Both the position numbers and the translations under genes were made by a program. Under the pieces are notes generated by a model. That model was not told the origin of the DNA, ran no database searches, and was given only the letters and a program-made list of their open reading frames with translations. This document shows, piece after piece, positions 23,780 to 55,306 of a stretch of 64,000 nt of DNA. This stretch comes from Iodidimonas sp. SYSU 1G8. Its GTDB lineage: Bacteria; Pseudomonadota; Alphaproteobacteria; SMXS01. Every line of letters begins with the position of its first letter. Positions within the stretch are counted from its first letter, which is position 1. The stretch covers positions 1-64,000 of the forward strand of contig NZ_JBBYXJ010000002.1 in NCBI RefSeq assembly GCF_039655775.1. The letters run 5' to 3'.

Positions 23780-25353
23780 ACCGGTTCGCCGAGCTGCTCG
23801 ACCGCCTGTCCTACACGCCGGGGCGCAACGACAAGCTGGCGCTGATCGTCGATTATTTCCGCCACGTGCCCGACCCGGACCGGGGCTATGCGCTGGCCGC
23901 CATGACCGGCGCGCTAAGCTTCCGGCACGCCAAGCCAGCGCTGATCCGCGGACTGATCGAGGAACGGACCGATCCCGCGCTGTTCCGCTGGTCCTATGAT
24001 TACGTGGGCGACATGGCCGAGACCGTCGCCCTGATGTGGCCTGTGCGCCGCGGCGTCAACCGGGTGCCGGACCTGTCGGAAATCGTCGAGGAACTGGACA
24101 GCACCTCCAAGGCGGACATGCCGGGCCGCATCGCCGGCTGGCTCGACGGGCTCGACGAGACCGGGCGATGGGCGCTGCTGAAACTGATCACCGGCGCCAT
24201 GCGCATCGGCGTGTCCGCCCGGCTGGCCAAGCAGGCGCTGGCCCAGTACGGCAGTCTGGACATCGCCGAGGTCGAGGAAGTCTGGCACGGGCTGACACCG
24301 CCCTATCTGGACCTGTTCGCTTGGTCCGATGGTCTTGCGGAACGGCCCGAGCATGGCGCGCTGGCGCCGTTCCGGCCGGTCATGCTGTCCCATCCGGTCG
24401 AGGAAGCGGATTTCGCCAAAATGAACCCGGCCGAATTCCGCGCCGAGTGGAAATGGGACGGCATCCGTGTCCAGGCGGTGTCTGATGGCGGCGTGAAACG
24501 GCTCTACAGCCGCACCGGCGAGGACATCTCCGGCGCCTTCCCCGACCTGATCGAGGCCATGGAGTTCGATGCCGCCATCGACGGCGAATTGCTGGTGATC
24601 CGCGACGGCACCGTCGCGCCCTTCGCCGACCTGCAGAAGCGGCTGAACCGCAAGACCGTCACCAAAAAGCAGCTCGCCGAATTTCCCGCCGGCCTGCGGG
24701 TCTACGATCTGCTGGTGGAGGATGGCGAGGATCTGCGCCCCCTGTCCTTCGACGAGCGCCGCGCCCGGCTGGAAGACTGGGTGGCGCGGCAAGCGAATGC
24801 CCACATCACCCTGTCGCCGCTGATCCCGTTCGCCGCCTTCGAGGACCTGGCGGAGCTGCGCGGCCATGTGGACGCCGAGAGCGTCGAGGGCGTGATGCTG
24901 AAACGGGGCGACAGTCCCTATCTGGCGGGACGGCCGAAGGGCCCTTGGTGGAAATGGAAGCGCGACCCGTTCCTGGTGGACGCGGTGCTGCTCTATGCCC
25001 AGCGCGGCCATGGCCGCCGCTCGTCCTTCTATTCCGACTACACGTTCGGGGTCTGGAAGGACGGCGCGCTGGTGCCTGTCGGCAAGGCCTATTTCGGCTT
25101 CACCGACGAGGAACTGAAGCAGCTGGACAAGTTCGTGCGCGACCACACGGTCAATACCTTCGGCCCGGTCCGCGAGGTCAGCCACGAGGCGGACAAGGGC
25201 CTGGTGCTGGAAGTGGCGTTCGAAGGCCTGCAACGCTCGCCGCGCCACAAATCCGGCATCGCCATGCGCTTCCCGCGCATCAACCGCATCCGCTGGGACA
25301 AGCCCCCGCGCGAGGCCGACGAGATCGCCGCGCTGGAAAAGATGCTGGCCTAG
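23776..25353 (+). CDS. ATP-dependent DNA ligase (LigC-type, damage-response)
   Basis: A 525-residue DNA ligase. It has an N-terminal DNA-binding domain (~1-200), an adenylation domain with nucleophile Lys226 in EWKWDGIRVQ (KxDG), motif III DGELLVIRDG, motif IV EGVMLKRGD and motif V WWKWKRDPF, and a C-terminal OB domain (EVAFEGLQRSPRHKSGIAMRFPR). This long form, coupled to the exonuclease by a GTGA overlap, is the member linked to cisplatin and crosslink tolerance in proteobacteria. It lacks the extra polymerase and nuclease domains of LigD. Confidence 0.93.
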   Translation: MNRFAELLDRLSYTPGRNDKLALIVDYFRHVPDPDRGYALAAMTGALSFRHAKPALIRGLIEERTDPALFRWSYDYVGDMAETVALMWPVRRGVNRVPDLSEIVEELDSTSKADMPGRIAGWLDGLDETGRWALLKLITGAMRIGVSARLAKQALAQYGSLDIAEVEEVWHGLTPPYLDLFAWSDGLAERPEHGALAPFRPVMLSHPVEEADFAKMNPAEFRAEWKWDGIRVQAVSDGGVKRLYSRTGEDISGAFPDLIEAMEFDAAIDGELLVIRDGTVAPFADLQKRLNRKTVTKKQLAEFPAGLRVYDLLVEDGEDLRPLSFDERRARLEDWVARQANAHITLSPLIPFAAFEDLAELRGHVDAESVEGVMLKRGDSPYLAGRPKGPWWKWKRDPFLVDAVLLYAQRGHGRRSSFYSDYTFGVWKDGALVPVGKAYFGFTDEELKQLDKFVRDHTVNTFGPVREVSHEADKGLVLEVAFEGLQRSPRHKSGIAMRFPRINRIRWDKPPREADEIAALEKMLA

Positions 25354-52663: not shown

Positions 52664-52720
52664 ATTGTGCCCGCCCCGAAACGCCCGTTACACTTCCCGC
52701 CGAACCTGGGGAGAGACGGC

Positions 52721-53245
52721 ATGAGCGGGAACACCTTCAATTACGACAGCGTCAAGGGCTACACCCTGGACGAGGACGCCGAGCGCCAGCTGATCGAGGC
52801 GCAGAACGAATGCACCTTCATGTGGTCGACCAAGGAAGGCTGGCCCGTCGGCGTCATCATGTCCTATGTGTTCCACGAGGGCTGTTTCTGGCTGAGCGTG
52901 TCCTCGCTGCGGGTGCGGGTGCAGGCGGTGGAGCGCGACCCGCGCGTGTCCATTTCCATCACCGGCAAGGGCGTCGACGTGCCCGGCGGCCGCAGCCTGA
53001 CCTACAAGGGCACCTGCGAGGTGCTGCGCGACCGCGAGACCATCGACTGGTTCCTGCCCGCCCTCGCCAAGCGCCTGCGCTGGGGCGACGAAGAGGCGCA
53101 GAAACTGTTCGTGAAGCTGAACGACACGCCGAACCGCCGGGTGCTGAAAGTGACCCCGGTCAAGCGCATCGGCTATGACGGCCAGAAGATGCGCAAGGCG
53201 ACGGAAGAGGCGGTGGCGGCGGGGAAAGAGATCGGGCCGAGCTGA
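52721..53245 (+). CDS. Pyridoxamine-5'-phosphate-oxidase-fold (split barrel) protein
   Basis: A 174-residue flavin-binding split-barrel type protein: ECTFMWSTKEGWPVGVIMSYVFHEGCFWLSVSSLRVRVQAVERDPRVSISITG is the classical core, then SLTYKGTCEVLRDRET. This group (PPOX/F420- or FMN-dependent) reduces or protects small molecules; the cofactor cannot be assigned. GGGGAGAG precedes the ATG at 52721. It is the last GC-rich gene before the AT-rich SIR2 insert, which begins about 10 bases after its stop. Confidence 0.85.
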   Translation: MSGNTFNYDSVKGYTLDEDAERQLIEAQNECTFMWSTKEGWPVGVIMSYVFHEGCFWLSVSSLRVRVQAVERDPRVSISITGKGVDVPGGRSLTYKGTCEVLRDRETIDWFLPALAKRLRWGDEEAQKLFVKLNDTPNRRVLKVTPVKRIGYDGQKMRKATEEAVAAGKEIGPS

Positions 53246-53255
53246 TTATGTGACG

Positions 53256-54284
53256 ATGTTTGATTCACGTACGCTATTTATCATCGGTGCCGGCGCAAGC
53301 GCGGAAGTTAATCTCCCTATAGGTGATGACCTCACGAAACGAATTGCGAAGCTCTTAACGTTTCAGTTTGATGGATTCCAAAAAACCTCAGGCGATGAAC
53401 TCATCTACCGAGCGCTTCAGCAGCATATTTCCTCAACTAGACGCCATGATGCTGATCAACTACTAAATTCATGCTTGAGAATAAGCCGGGCAATGCCATT
53501 AGCATCTTCTATAGACTCATATTTAGACAGCAGCCCAGATGATACAAACATGATATTTTGTGGAAAGCTAGGAATTGCTCGTTCCATTTTGGACGCTGAA
53601 CGAACTAGCAAGTTATTCTTTGGCGCGAACCAGGCGTCTCTTGATTTTAGAGCCCTGTCAGAAACATGGTATAATAAGATATTCAAAATATTATGCAGAG
53701 GCGTTAGCCTCAAAAATATAGACTATATATTTGATAATGTTTCGATGATAGTGTTCAACTACGATAGATGCATAGAACATTTTATCAAAAACTCTTTATC
53801 CACGTACTTCAACCTTAAGCCAGAACGTGCTGAAGAGATCACCAAAACATTACATATAATTCACCCGTATGGAACTGTTGGAGAATTACCTTGGAAATCT
53901 AAAGAGAGATCTATTTCGTTTGGGGCCACCCCTAGCCCAGAAGATTTAATTAACATCTCTAACAAATTATATACATTTAGTGAGAGCTTTGAAAAAATTA
54001 CACTAAAAAAAATTATATCAGACACTGTCGATGAATCTGATACCGTGGTATTCCTCGGCTTCGGATTTCACCGTCAGAATATGGATTTAATTGACAAGAA
54101 ATCCACGCGCGAAATTAAAAAGATATTTGGGACACTAAAGGGTTCGTCCGAGAGTGACAAATTGGTTGTTTCTCAATTAGTTTCTGAAAGCTTCAATATA
54201 AACGAGCCTGAATCGAAGATTCATTTACGAACAGACCTTACTTGTAACGAATTATTCCAAGAATATTCTCTTAGCTTAGGATAA
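53256..54284 (+). CDS. Stand-alone SIR2-like domain protein (AT-rich, probably acquired; candidate defence gene)
   Basis: 342 residues. The SIR2-type NAD-binding signature is complete: LFIIGAGASAEVNLPIGDDL (GAGAS at 11-15), SIDSYL (85-90), NYD at 168-170 in MIVFNYDRCIEHF, His203 in IIHPYG, and VVFLGFGF (264-271). This matches SIR2_2-type proteins found in anti-phage systems, where they hydrolyse NAD to stop infection. Base composition is strikingly different: sampled 60-base lines at 53701 and 54001 are 30% and 38% GC. No partner gene (HerA, pAgo, TIR) is adjacent. ATG 53256 is assumed; GTG 53250 is possible. The NAD-hydrolysis and defence role is inferred. Confidence 0.82.
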   Translation: MFDSRTLFIIGAGASAEVNLPIGDDLTKRIAKLLTFQFDGFQKTSGDELIYRALQQHISSTRRHDADQLLNSCLRISRAMPLASSIDSYLDSSPDDTNMIFCGKLGIARSILDAERTSKLFFGANQASLDFRALSETWYNKIFKILCRGVSLKNIDYIFDNVSMIVFNYDRCIEHFIKNSLSTYFNLKPERAEEITKTLHIIHPYGTVGELPWKSKERSISFGATPSPEDLINISNKLYTFSESFEKITLKKIISDTVDESDTVVFLGFGFHRQNMDLIDKKSTREIKKIFGTLKGSSESDKLVVSQLVSESFNINEPESKIHLRTDLTCNELFQEYSLSLG

Positions 54285-54286
54285 GG

Positions 54287-55306
54287 TCACACCCGCACCA
54301 TCACCTTGCCCTTGTTCGACCCGTCGAACAACCGGTGATAGGCCTTCAGCGTGTTCTCCAGGCCGTCGACCAGTTCCACGTTGTAGGTGAACTTGCCGTC
54401 GCGGTGCCACGCCATGAGCTGGCGTTCGATCTCGCCGCACTTGTCGAACCAGTCGGGCGAGAAGAAGCCCTGCACGGTGGCGCGTTTCATCAGCAGCTGG
54501 TCGAAATTGCTGGGGCCGGGGCGTTTTTCCGTGTCGGCATATTGCGAAACCAGGCCGCAGATGGCGATGCGGGCATACATGGCCATGTGGCCCATGATGG
54601 TGTCGAGCACCTGCCCGCCCACATTGTCGAAATAGACATCCACGCCATCGGGGCACAGCACGTTCAGCTCGTGCGACAGGTTCTGCTGGCGGTAGTTGAT
54701 GGCGTGATCGAAACCCAGTTCCTCGGTCAGCCAGCGGCATTTTTCCTCGCGGCTGGTGAGGCCGATCACCCGGCAGCCCAGATTGCGCGCCACCTGCCCG
54801 GCCAGCGAGCCCGTGGCGCCCGCCGCCGCCGAGATCACCACGGTTTCGCCCGCCTTCGCCTTGCCCACGTCGGCGATGCCCACATAGGCGGTCCAGCCAT
54901 TGGGGCCGCCCATGGCCAGATAGGCCGGCAGGTCGATGTCGTCTTCCACCGGCAGTTTCTGGAACAGGCCGGAATGCTCGTCGGCCACGGAGTAGTCCGC
55001 CCAGTGGCCGAAGGTGCGCAGCCGGTCGCCCACGGCGAAGTCGGCGCGCTTCGACTCCACCACCTCGCCGATCATCATGCCGGCCATGGGCGTGCCGATC
55101 ACCACCGGCGGCTGGTAGGCATCGGTGCGCGGGCCCATCCACATGCGGGTGCCGGCATCCATGGAGAGGTAGAGCGACTTGACCAGCACCTGCCCGTCCC
55201 GAATCTGAGGAATGTTGCCATGTTCATGGAATTCCAGCGCGCTTTCGAAATCGTCGCCCTCGGGACGGCGCGCGAGCACCCAGTTGCGGTTGGTGTTGCC
55301 GGTCAT
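54287..55306 (-). CDS. NADP-dependent MDR oxidoreductase (CurA/PTGR-like)
   Basis: A 339-residue zinc-free MDR reductase: NRNWVLARRPEGDDFESALEF at the start, GGPNGWTAYVGIADVGKAKAGETVVISAAAGATGSLAGQVARN as the NADPH site, GVDVYFDNVGGQVLDTIM and YADTEKRPGPSNFDQLLMKRATVQGFF. These are signatures of prostaglandin/leukotriene reductase-like ene reductases acting on unsaturated ketones or aldehydes. Its stop lies 2 bases from the SIR2 gene stop (convergent). GGGGAAG precedes the ATG. Confidence 0.9.
   Translation of the reverse strand: MTGNTNRNWVLARRPEGDDFESALEFHEHGNIPQIRDGQVLVKSLYLSMDAGTRMWMGPRTDAYQPPVVIGTPMAGMMIGEVVESKRADFAVGDRLRTFGHWADYSVADEHSGLFQKLPVEDDIDLPAYLAMGGPNGWTAYVGIADVGKAKAGETVVISAAAGATGSLAGQVARNLGCRVIGLTSREEKCRWLTEELGFDHAINYRQQNLSHELNVLCPDGVDVYFDNVGGQVLDTIMGHMAMYARIAICGLVSQYADTEKRPGPSNFDQLLMKRATVQGFFSPDWFDKCGEIERQLMAWHRDGKFTYNVELVDGLENTLKAYHRLFDGSNKGKVMVRV

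Follow-up and report, generated by a model that had tools for sequence, protein, structure and literature searches.

The window analyzed here is a stretch of 64,000 nucleotides from Iodidimonas sp. SYSU 1G8, in which a stand-alone gene of the SIR2_2 family lies between a PNPOx-type gene of the flavin-oxidase family and a convergent zinc-binding alcohol-dehydrogenase-type (ADH-type) gene (Table 1). The open frame is genuine, running from the ATG at 53256, which agrees with the start of the aligned homologues, to a stop codon that ends at 54284. The gene starts 10 bases past the stop of the PNPOx-type gene, on the same strand, and 2 bases separate its own stop from the end of the ADH-type gene. 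At 0.383 over the 1,026 bp from 53259 to 54284, its GC content is the minimum for stretches of this length in the window, which averages 0.661 and elsewhere falls no lower than 0.535; the description in an earlier note, of an AT-rich gene placed exactly between two GC-rich ones, is thus accurate. The family assignment made there is also borne out: the protein matches Pfam SIR2_2 (PF13289) with 26.9 bits against a curated cut-off of 24.5, 8 of 11 aligned family members match it at E<=0.01, and no other Pfam domain scores above cut-off in its 342 residues. Searches found no tRNA in the 64-kb window and no repeats bracketing the insert, those nearby being short and imperfect. Promoter-like matches occur only inside the AT-rich gene, with none ahead of it. 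The host genome encodes a second, different SIR2_2 protein (L199, G000:C1:1643061-1643576; open frame of 460 aa), which carries a canonical TLNYD...KLHG motif.

Table 1. Features of the locus and of two loci compared with it.
Feature	Coordinates	Strand	Basis or remark
Upstream flank, PNPOx-type flavin-oxidase-family gene	52667..53245	+	PNPOx_N 4.7e-9
Inserted segment (10 bp + gene + 2 bp)	53246..54286	.	Congener flank comparison
Stand-alone SIR2_2-family gene, 342 aa	53256..54284	+	Pfam SIR2_2; AlphaFold2 model with SIR2 fold
NAD-site residues of the SIR2 protein			G11/G13, N168/D170, HPYG 203-206
Downstream flank, convergent zinc-binding alcohol-dehydrogenase-type gene	54287..55306	-	ADH_N_2 6.6e-30, ADH_zinc_N 4.6e-21
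Single AT-rich NACHT gene of congener G003	L043:3014-4801	+	Same intergenic slot as the window SIR2 gene
Relative in G007 (another genus)	L048 7003-8900		Same contig as L085; few bases either side

Comparison with six congeners established that the segment is an insertion. None of the six carries the SIR2 protein or any match for the inserted DNA, and a copy of host-like composition at the same place was not seen. In five of them the flanking orthologues stand side by side, the PNPOx-type proteins being 84–87% and the ADH-type proteins 85–90% identical to those of the window; the remaining genome (G005, 78% complete) has only weaker paralogues of the flank genes. Three congeners (G002, G004 and G006) have an empty site, with a gap of 7 bp between the two genes, which, together with a segment unmatched in all six genomes, places the insertion beyond chance. 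The empty-site comparison proposed in the earlier note therefore supports its claim of a foreign gene. In G001 the slot is filled by 242 bp of GC-rich sequence. This stretch (G001:C74, about 25018–25259) looks noncoding.

The fifth congener, G003, has a gap of 1,859 bp with a GC content of 0.40, which encodes a 595-residue NACHT-domain protein (E = 3.1e-7; 30.8 bits against a cut-off of 26.7). This gene is oriented opposite to the SIR2 gene, following the ADH-type gene on the latter's strand. Its product is present in 1 of 7 genomes, gave no matches among PDB sequences or solved structures, and is a candidate one-gene STAND-type defence. With SIR2 in the window and NACHT in G003, at least two AT-rich genes, unrelated to each other, have come to occupy this slot singly, and both belong to families with immune members. 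The PNPOx/ADH intergenic site is a one-gene cassette slot, in keeping with the single-gene insertion first suspected.

Relatives of the SIR2 protein are widespread and patchy. Matches were found in 2 of 10 genomes of the host's family, in 12 of 385 genomes of its class, and in 14 plasmid records, all from Rhizobium or Agrobacterium. Single-sequence scans of genome and viral contigs returned no relatives; an alignment query succeeded, yielding 367 confirmed stretches in the genome-contig collection and 43 loci in viral contigs. The best 80 of the 367, which were used onward, are mostly from Pseudomonadota, with some from other phyla by record titles. A protein search of 50,697 phage records gave no match, no NCBIfam family was assigned to 11 members and no PHROGs family to four, and the best named defence-model match of the SIR2 protein is weak (Aga_SIR2, 4.1e-5, 20.8 bits). 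With four near-duplicates set aside, 109 of the 123 relative loci encode proteins of 325–395 aa. One relative (L097) is broken by two in-frame stops, and the copy in R. etli is split around IS5 genes.

The relatives also put the base composition into perspective. At the 120 of 123 loci with enough flank, the SIR2 genes average 0.102 below their surroundings in GC (sd 0.059), the difference being negative in 117, and gene GC correlates with that of the surroundings (r 0.74). The 493 same-size open reading frames taken as a control from these loci differ from their flanks by +0.015 on average (sd 0.037). Since the family is some 10 points poorer in GC than its surroundings, low GC alone is weaker evidence of foreignness than it seems. 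The difference of the window gene (-0.274) is nevertheless extreme against the control frames and lies beyond those of all 120 relatives (lowest, -0.249), as would suit a gene that arrived recently.

The fold was predicted with AlphaFold2 from an alignment (A2) of 106 sequences, comprising the window protein and the products of 105 of the 123 loci. Excluded from it were sequences outside 325–395 aa, the near-duplicates L145 and L166–L168, and L092 (coordinates out of range), L097 (stops), L106 and L151. The model is confident over the whole chain (pLDDT 95.9, pTM 0.92) and displays a SIR2 fold, with a sizeable region of helices between residues 48 and 117 that separates the GAG loop from the Asn motif. 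Foldseek retrieved KomBC/KomC, SPARSA, SIR2-HerA and ThsA as the best PDB matches, and VIA-align ranked SIR2/HerA first (8wld_R, Z 14.3; 247 aligned residues, 4.3 Å, 13% identity), followed by BcThsA (8btp_A, Z 14.2; 219 residues, 3.1 Å), SPARSA (8y80_E, Z 13.6), KomC (9v12_i, 12.8), DSR2 (8wyc_B, 12.4) and FAM118B (9r3e_B, 11.8). Sirtuin deacetylases fit the fold too (Sir2 homologue 1ici_B, Z 13.1; Sirt5, 12.8); their Cys4 zinc module is lacking here, C172 being the only nearly invariant cysteine among the 106 sequences. A viral-protein fold library gave no useful match. As modelled, the protein consists of a SIR2 core plus helices at about residues 48–117, and no separate sensor domain is recognizable.

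Conservation across the 106 sequences outlines the NAD site. G11, A12, G13, D87, E115, W138 and N168 are invariant, as are Y169, D170, R171, G206, G209, G268 and N275, so that the catalytic Asn in its N-Y-D context is present in every member. The second motif departs from the canonical His-Gly: the window protein reads H203-P204-Y205-G206, with Tyr at position 205 in 105 sequences and Phe in one, and with His at position 203 in 100 and Arg in six. Five of these six have His at the preceding residue; L132 has Phe there. By comparison, His-Gly follows the Asn motif in 20 of 20 canonical SIR2_2 proteins of the class picked by the motif T[TL]N[YFW]D; outside this selection, L197 and L203 have His-Gly, L198 has Asn-Gly, and L207 and L209 have Tyr-Gly. 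The A2 profile sets H146 of KomC (from an entry named KomC(H146N)) opposite Tyr205, and the divergent L182 reads HLHGSLG where L184 and L186 read HVYGSLG, again placing His opposite Tyr205. A profile–profile alignment by hhalign dissents, aligning LHG three residues later, opposite 207–209. Judged from sequence, Tyr205 appears to occupy the canonical catalytic-His position, with His203 two residues upstream. The earlier note had taken the SIR2 NAD-site motifs, with Asn168 and His203, to be intact; this holds for Asn168 and is not supported for the His motif. A quick tree, from a search cut short of the careful one, did not decide whether Tyr or His is ancestral.

A change from His to Tyr is the standard inactivating mutation of human sirtuins. 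With Tyr apparently at the catalytic-His position, NADase activity is not to be assumed: the family may use another chemistry, His203 may substitute, or NAD+ cleavage may have been lost. Among related enzymes, the catalytic residues of DSR2 are given as N133 and H171 (PMC10973363, PMC10981675), N133A or H171A being reported to lower its NADase activity (PMC10981675), and H206A or N163A is described as preventing NADase activity in FAM118 (PMC12700824). A literature search for a SIR2 phage NADase with tyrosine at the catalytic histidine found no paper.

The main rival explanation follows from this substitution. The protein could be a pseudo-sirtuin, binding NAD+ or ADP-ribose without cleavage; it would then serve as sensor or blocker, for instance as an immunity or superinfection-exclusion factor that binds a phage protein. 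The near-universal Tyr where the canonical proteins of the class have His speaks for such a loss. We consider it unlikely all the same, as none of the 106 sequences varies at Asn168, Asp170 or the GAG loop, seemingly more conservation than mere binding requires, and the neighboring His203 could take over.

Clustering of 1,058 proteins encoded within five genes of the 123 loci revealed no recurrent partner, the largest cluster being present at nine loci with scattered offsets, as the earlier note had surmised from the window. A defence-island setting of the chromosomal relatives found no support: PADLOC models (E<=1e-10) were not enriched beside the relatives over the locus ends, in scans that covered 140 near proteins (of 166) and 134 far ones (of 155). 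Members of the family stand tightly between convergent genes only slightly more often (6/105) than other genes do (13/576). In G007, a genome of another genus, a relative with 36–37% identity directly follows a PNPOx-family gene and precedes a convergent gene. This second pairing of SIR2 with PNPOx was treated as coincidence, PNPOx not being recognized among the largest neighbor clusters; a search through the ABM gene of G007 for the corresponding site without an insert met too many paralogues to single one out. At seven loci (L139, L162, L171, L173, L176, L177 and L179), a serine-recombinase-type protein is encoded no more than three genes away from SIR2, the arrangement expected of cargo next to an integrase.

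The relatives in viral contigs provide a second view of placement. Among 140 neighbors at 40 loci (L145, L167, L168 and proteins shorter than 75 aa were left out of the scan), the PHROGs seen most often are major head proteins, repressors or regulators, integrases and head proteases. In L163 and L165–L168, the SIR2 gene sits within the head operon in reverse orientation, with the major head gene on one side and the operon's next gene, in L165 that for a head-tail adaptor, on the other. A survey of related major head genes gave 38 loci, nine of which had both flanks by tblastn. All nine hold 537–1,149 bp in the head/adaptor slot: SIR2 in two (both already in the viral-contig set), a TIR_2-like protein in one and other proteins in six. 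The TIR_2-like protein (289 aa; E 1.4e-8, 27.2 bits, below the cut-off of 28) had no matches among solved structures. Different inserts occupy the slot in L232, L233, L234, L235, L238, L239 and L240; one is TIR_2-like, several are short proteins starting with a hydrophobic stretch, and other proteins make up the rest. The phage head/adaptor site is a cargo slot that independently pairs SIR2 with another immune-type domain. Together with the NACHT gene at the chromosomal site, these prophage relatives support a defence-like context, in line with the earlier note.

These distributions weigh against a metabolic or regulatory enzyme, either a sirtuin-type deacylase or an ADP-ribosyltransferase, that was carried into the slot as a chance passenger with no defence role. 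Such an enzyme would account for the deacetylases among the fold matches and for the lack of defence-island enrichment; it sits poorly with the extreme patchiness and viral-contig occurrence of the family, with slots held in common with NACHT and TIR-like genes and with the absence of a conserved Cys pattern for a zinc module, and we regard it as improbable. That the gene is a decaying remnant is very improbable, its full-length open frame keeping every family-invariant residue despite the lack of a promoter-like site ahead of it and the broken relatives.

The window gene is apparently a recent stand-alone SIR2 insertion from a widespread mobile family. Our favored reading, to which we give a probability of roughly 60%, is a one-gene immune system that spreads horizontally and whose effector, of the SIR2 (sirtuin) superfamily, acts as an NADase. 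Arriving as little more than a coding sequence, the gene would have inserted at a neutral site where two genes converge, and it is probably expressed by read-through from the upstream PNPOx-type gene. Its product may wait as an inactive oligomer until an infection cue, perhaps a phage component, releases it; the released protein would then attack NAD+ through Asn168/Asp170, and the infected cell would cease to support the phage. With Tyr205 at the usual His position, the chemistry may differ from that of ThsA/DSR2-type NADases. More tentatively, and with the odds against it, one may envisage a large clade of one-gene immune sirtuins in which Tyr replaces the catalytic His, giving an NAD+ chemistry unlike that of ThsA/DSR2, and which moves bare between shared single-gene immunity slots of chromosomes and prophages, swapping with NACHT and TIR genes.

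What is new here is that single-gene slots are shared and that Tyr apparently stands at the histidine position. Should Tyr205 truly lie where the catalytic His is expected, the clade lends itself as a natural experiment on the residue that immune sirtuins require for cleaving NAD+. The PNPOx/ADH slot of the genus and the head/adaptor slot of the phage group are places to seek further one-gene defences.

Among known systems, the SIR2 subunit of SIR2-HerA (Nezha) is the best structural match to the model (residues 1–342), but that system has a HerA-type ATPase next door, whereas the window gene has PNPOx- and ADH-type neighbors and its family no recurrent partner. ThsA of Thoeris shares the SIR2 domain; the SLOG domain of ThsA and the adjacent ThsB that mark Thoeris were both absent for the 342-residue protein. 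KomC, a SIR2 NADase known from PDB entries of KomBC, is the best PDB sequence match by profile (E 1e-5), shares the NYDR motif and is likewise compact (264 aa); it differs in the His aligned to Tyr205, and the present family shows no recurrent partner. FAM118A/B, human noncanonical sirtuins annotated as SIR2_2, are described as related to antiphage sirtuins, and FAM118B retains H206/N163 and is active only with the help of its paralogue (PMC12700824). The P2/P4 phage hotspots are mobile-element sites with SIR2-domain genes, listed as uncharacterized or STAND-fused systems (PMC9122126). A literature search for stand-alone, solo or single-domain SIR2 found no paper. DSR1/DSR2 are single-gene SIR2 defences; DSR2 chains are about 1,000 residues long and are described as having a C-terminal sensor (PMC10973363), and DSR2 has N133/H171 where the window protein has N168 with Tyr205. 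The known SIR2 defences in this comparison have either a partner or a distinct sensor domain. Lacking both, a 342-residue SIR2 protein would make a minimal system, in which the switching-on of a bare SIR2 domain becomes directly testable.
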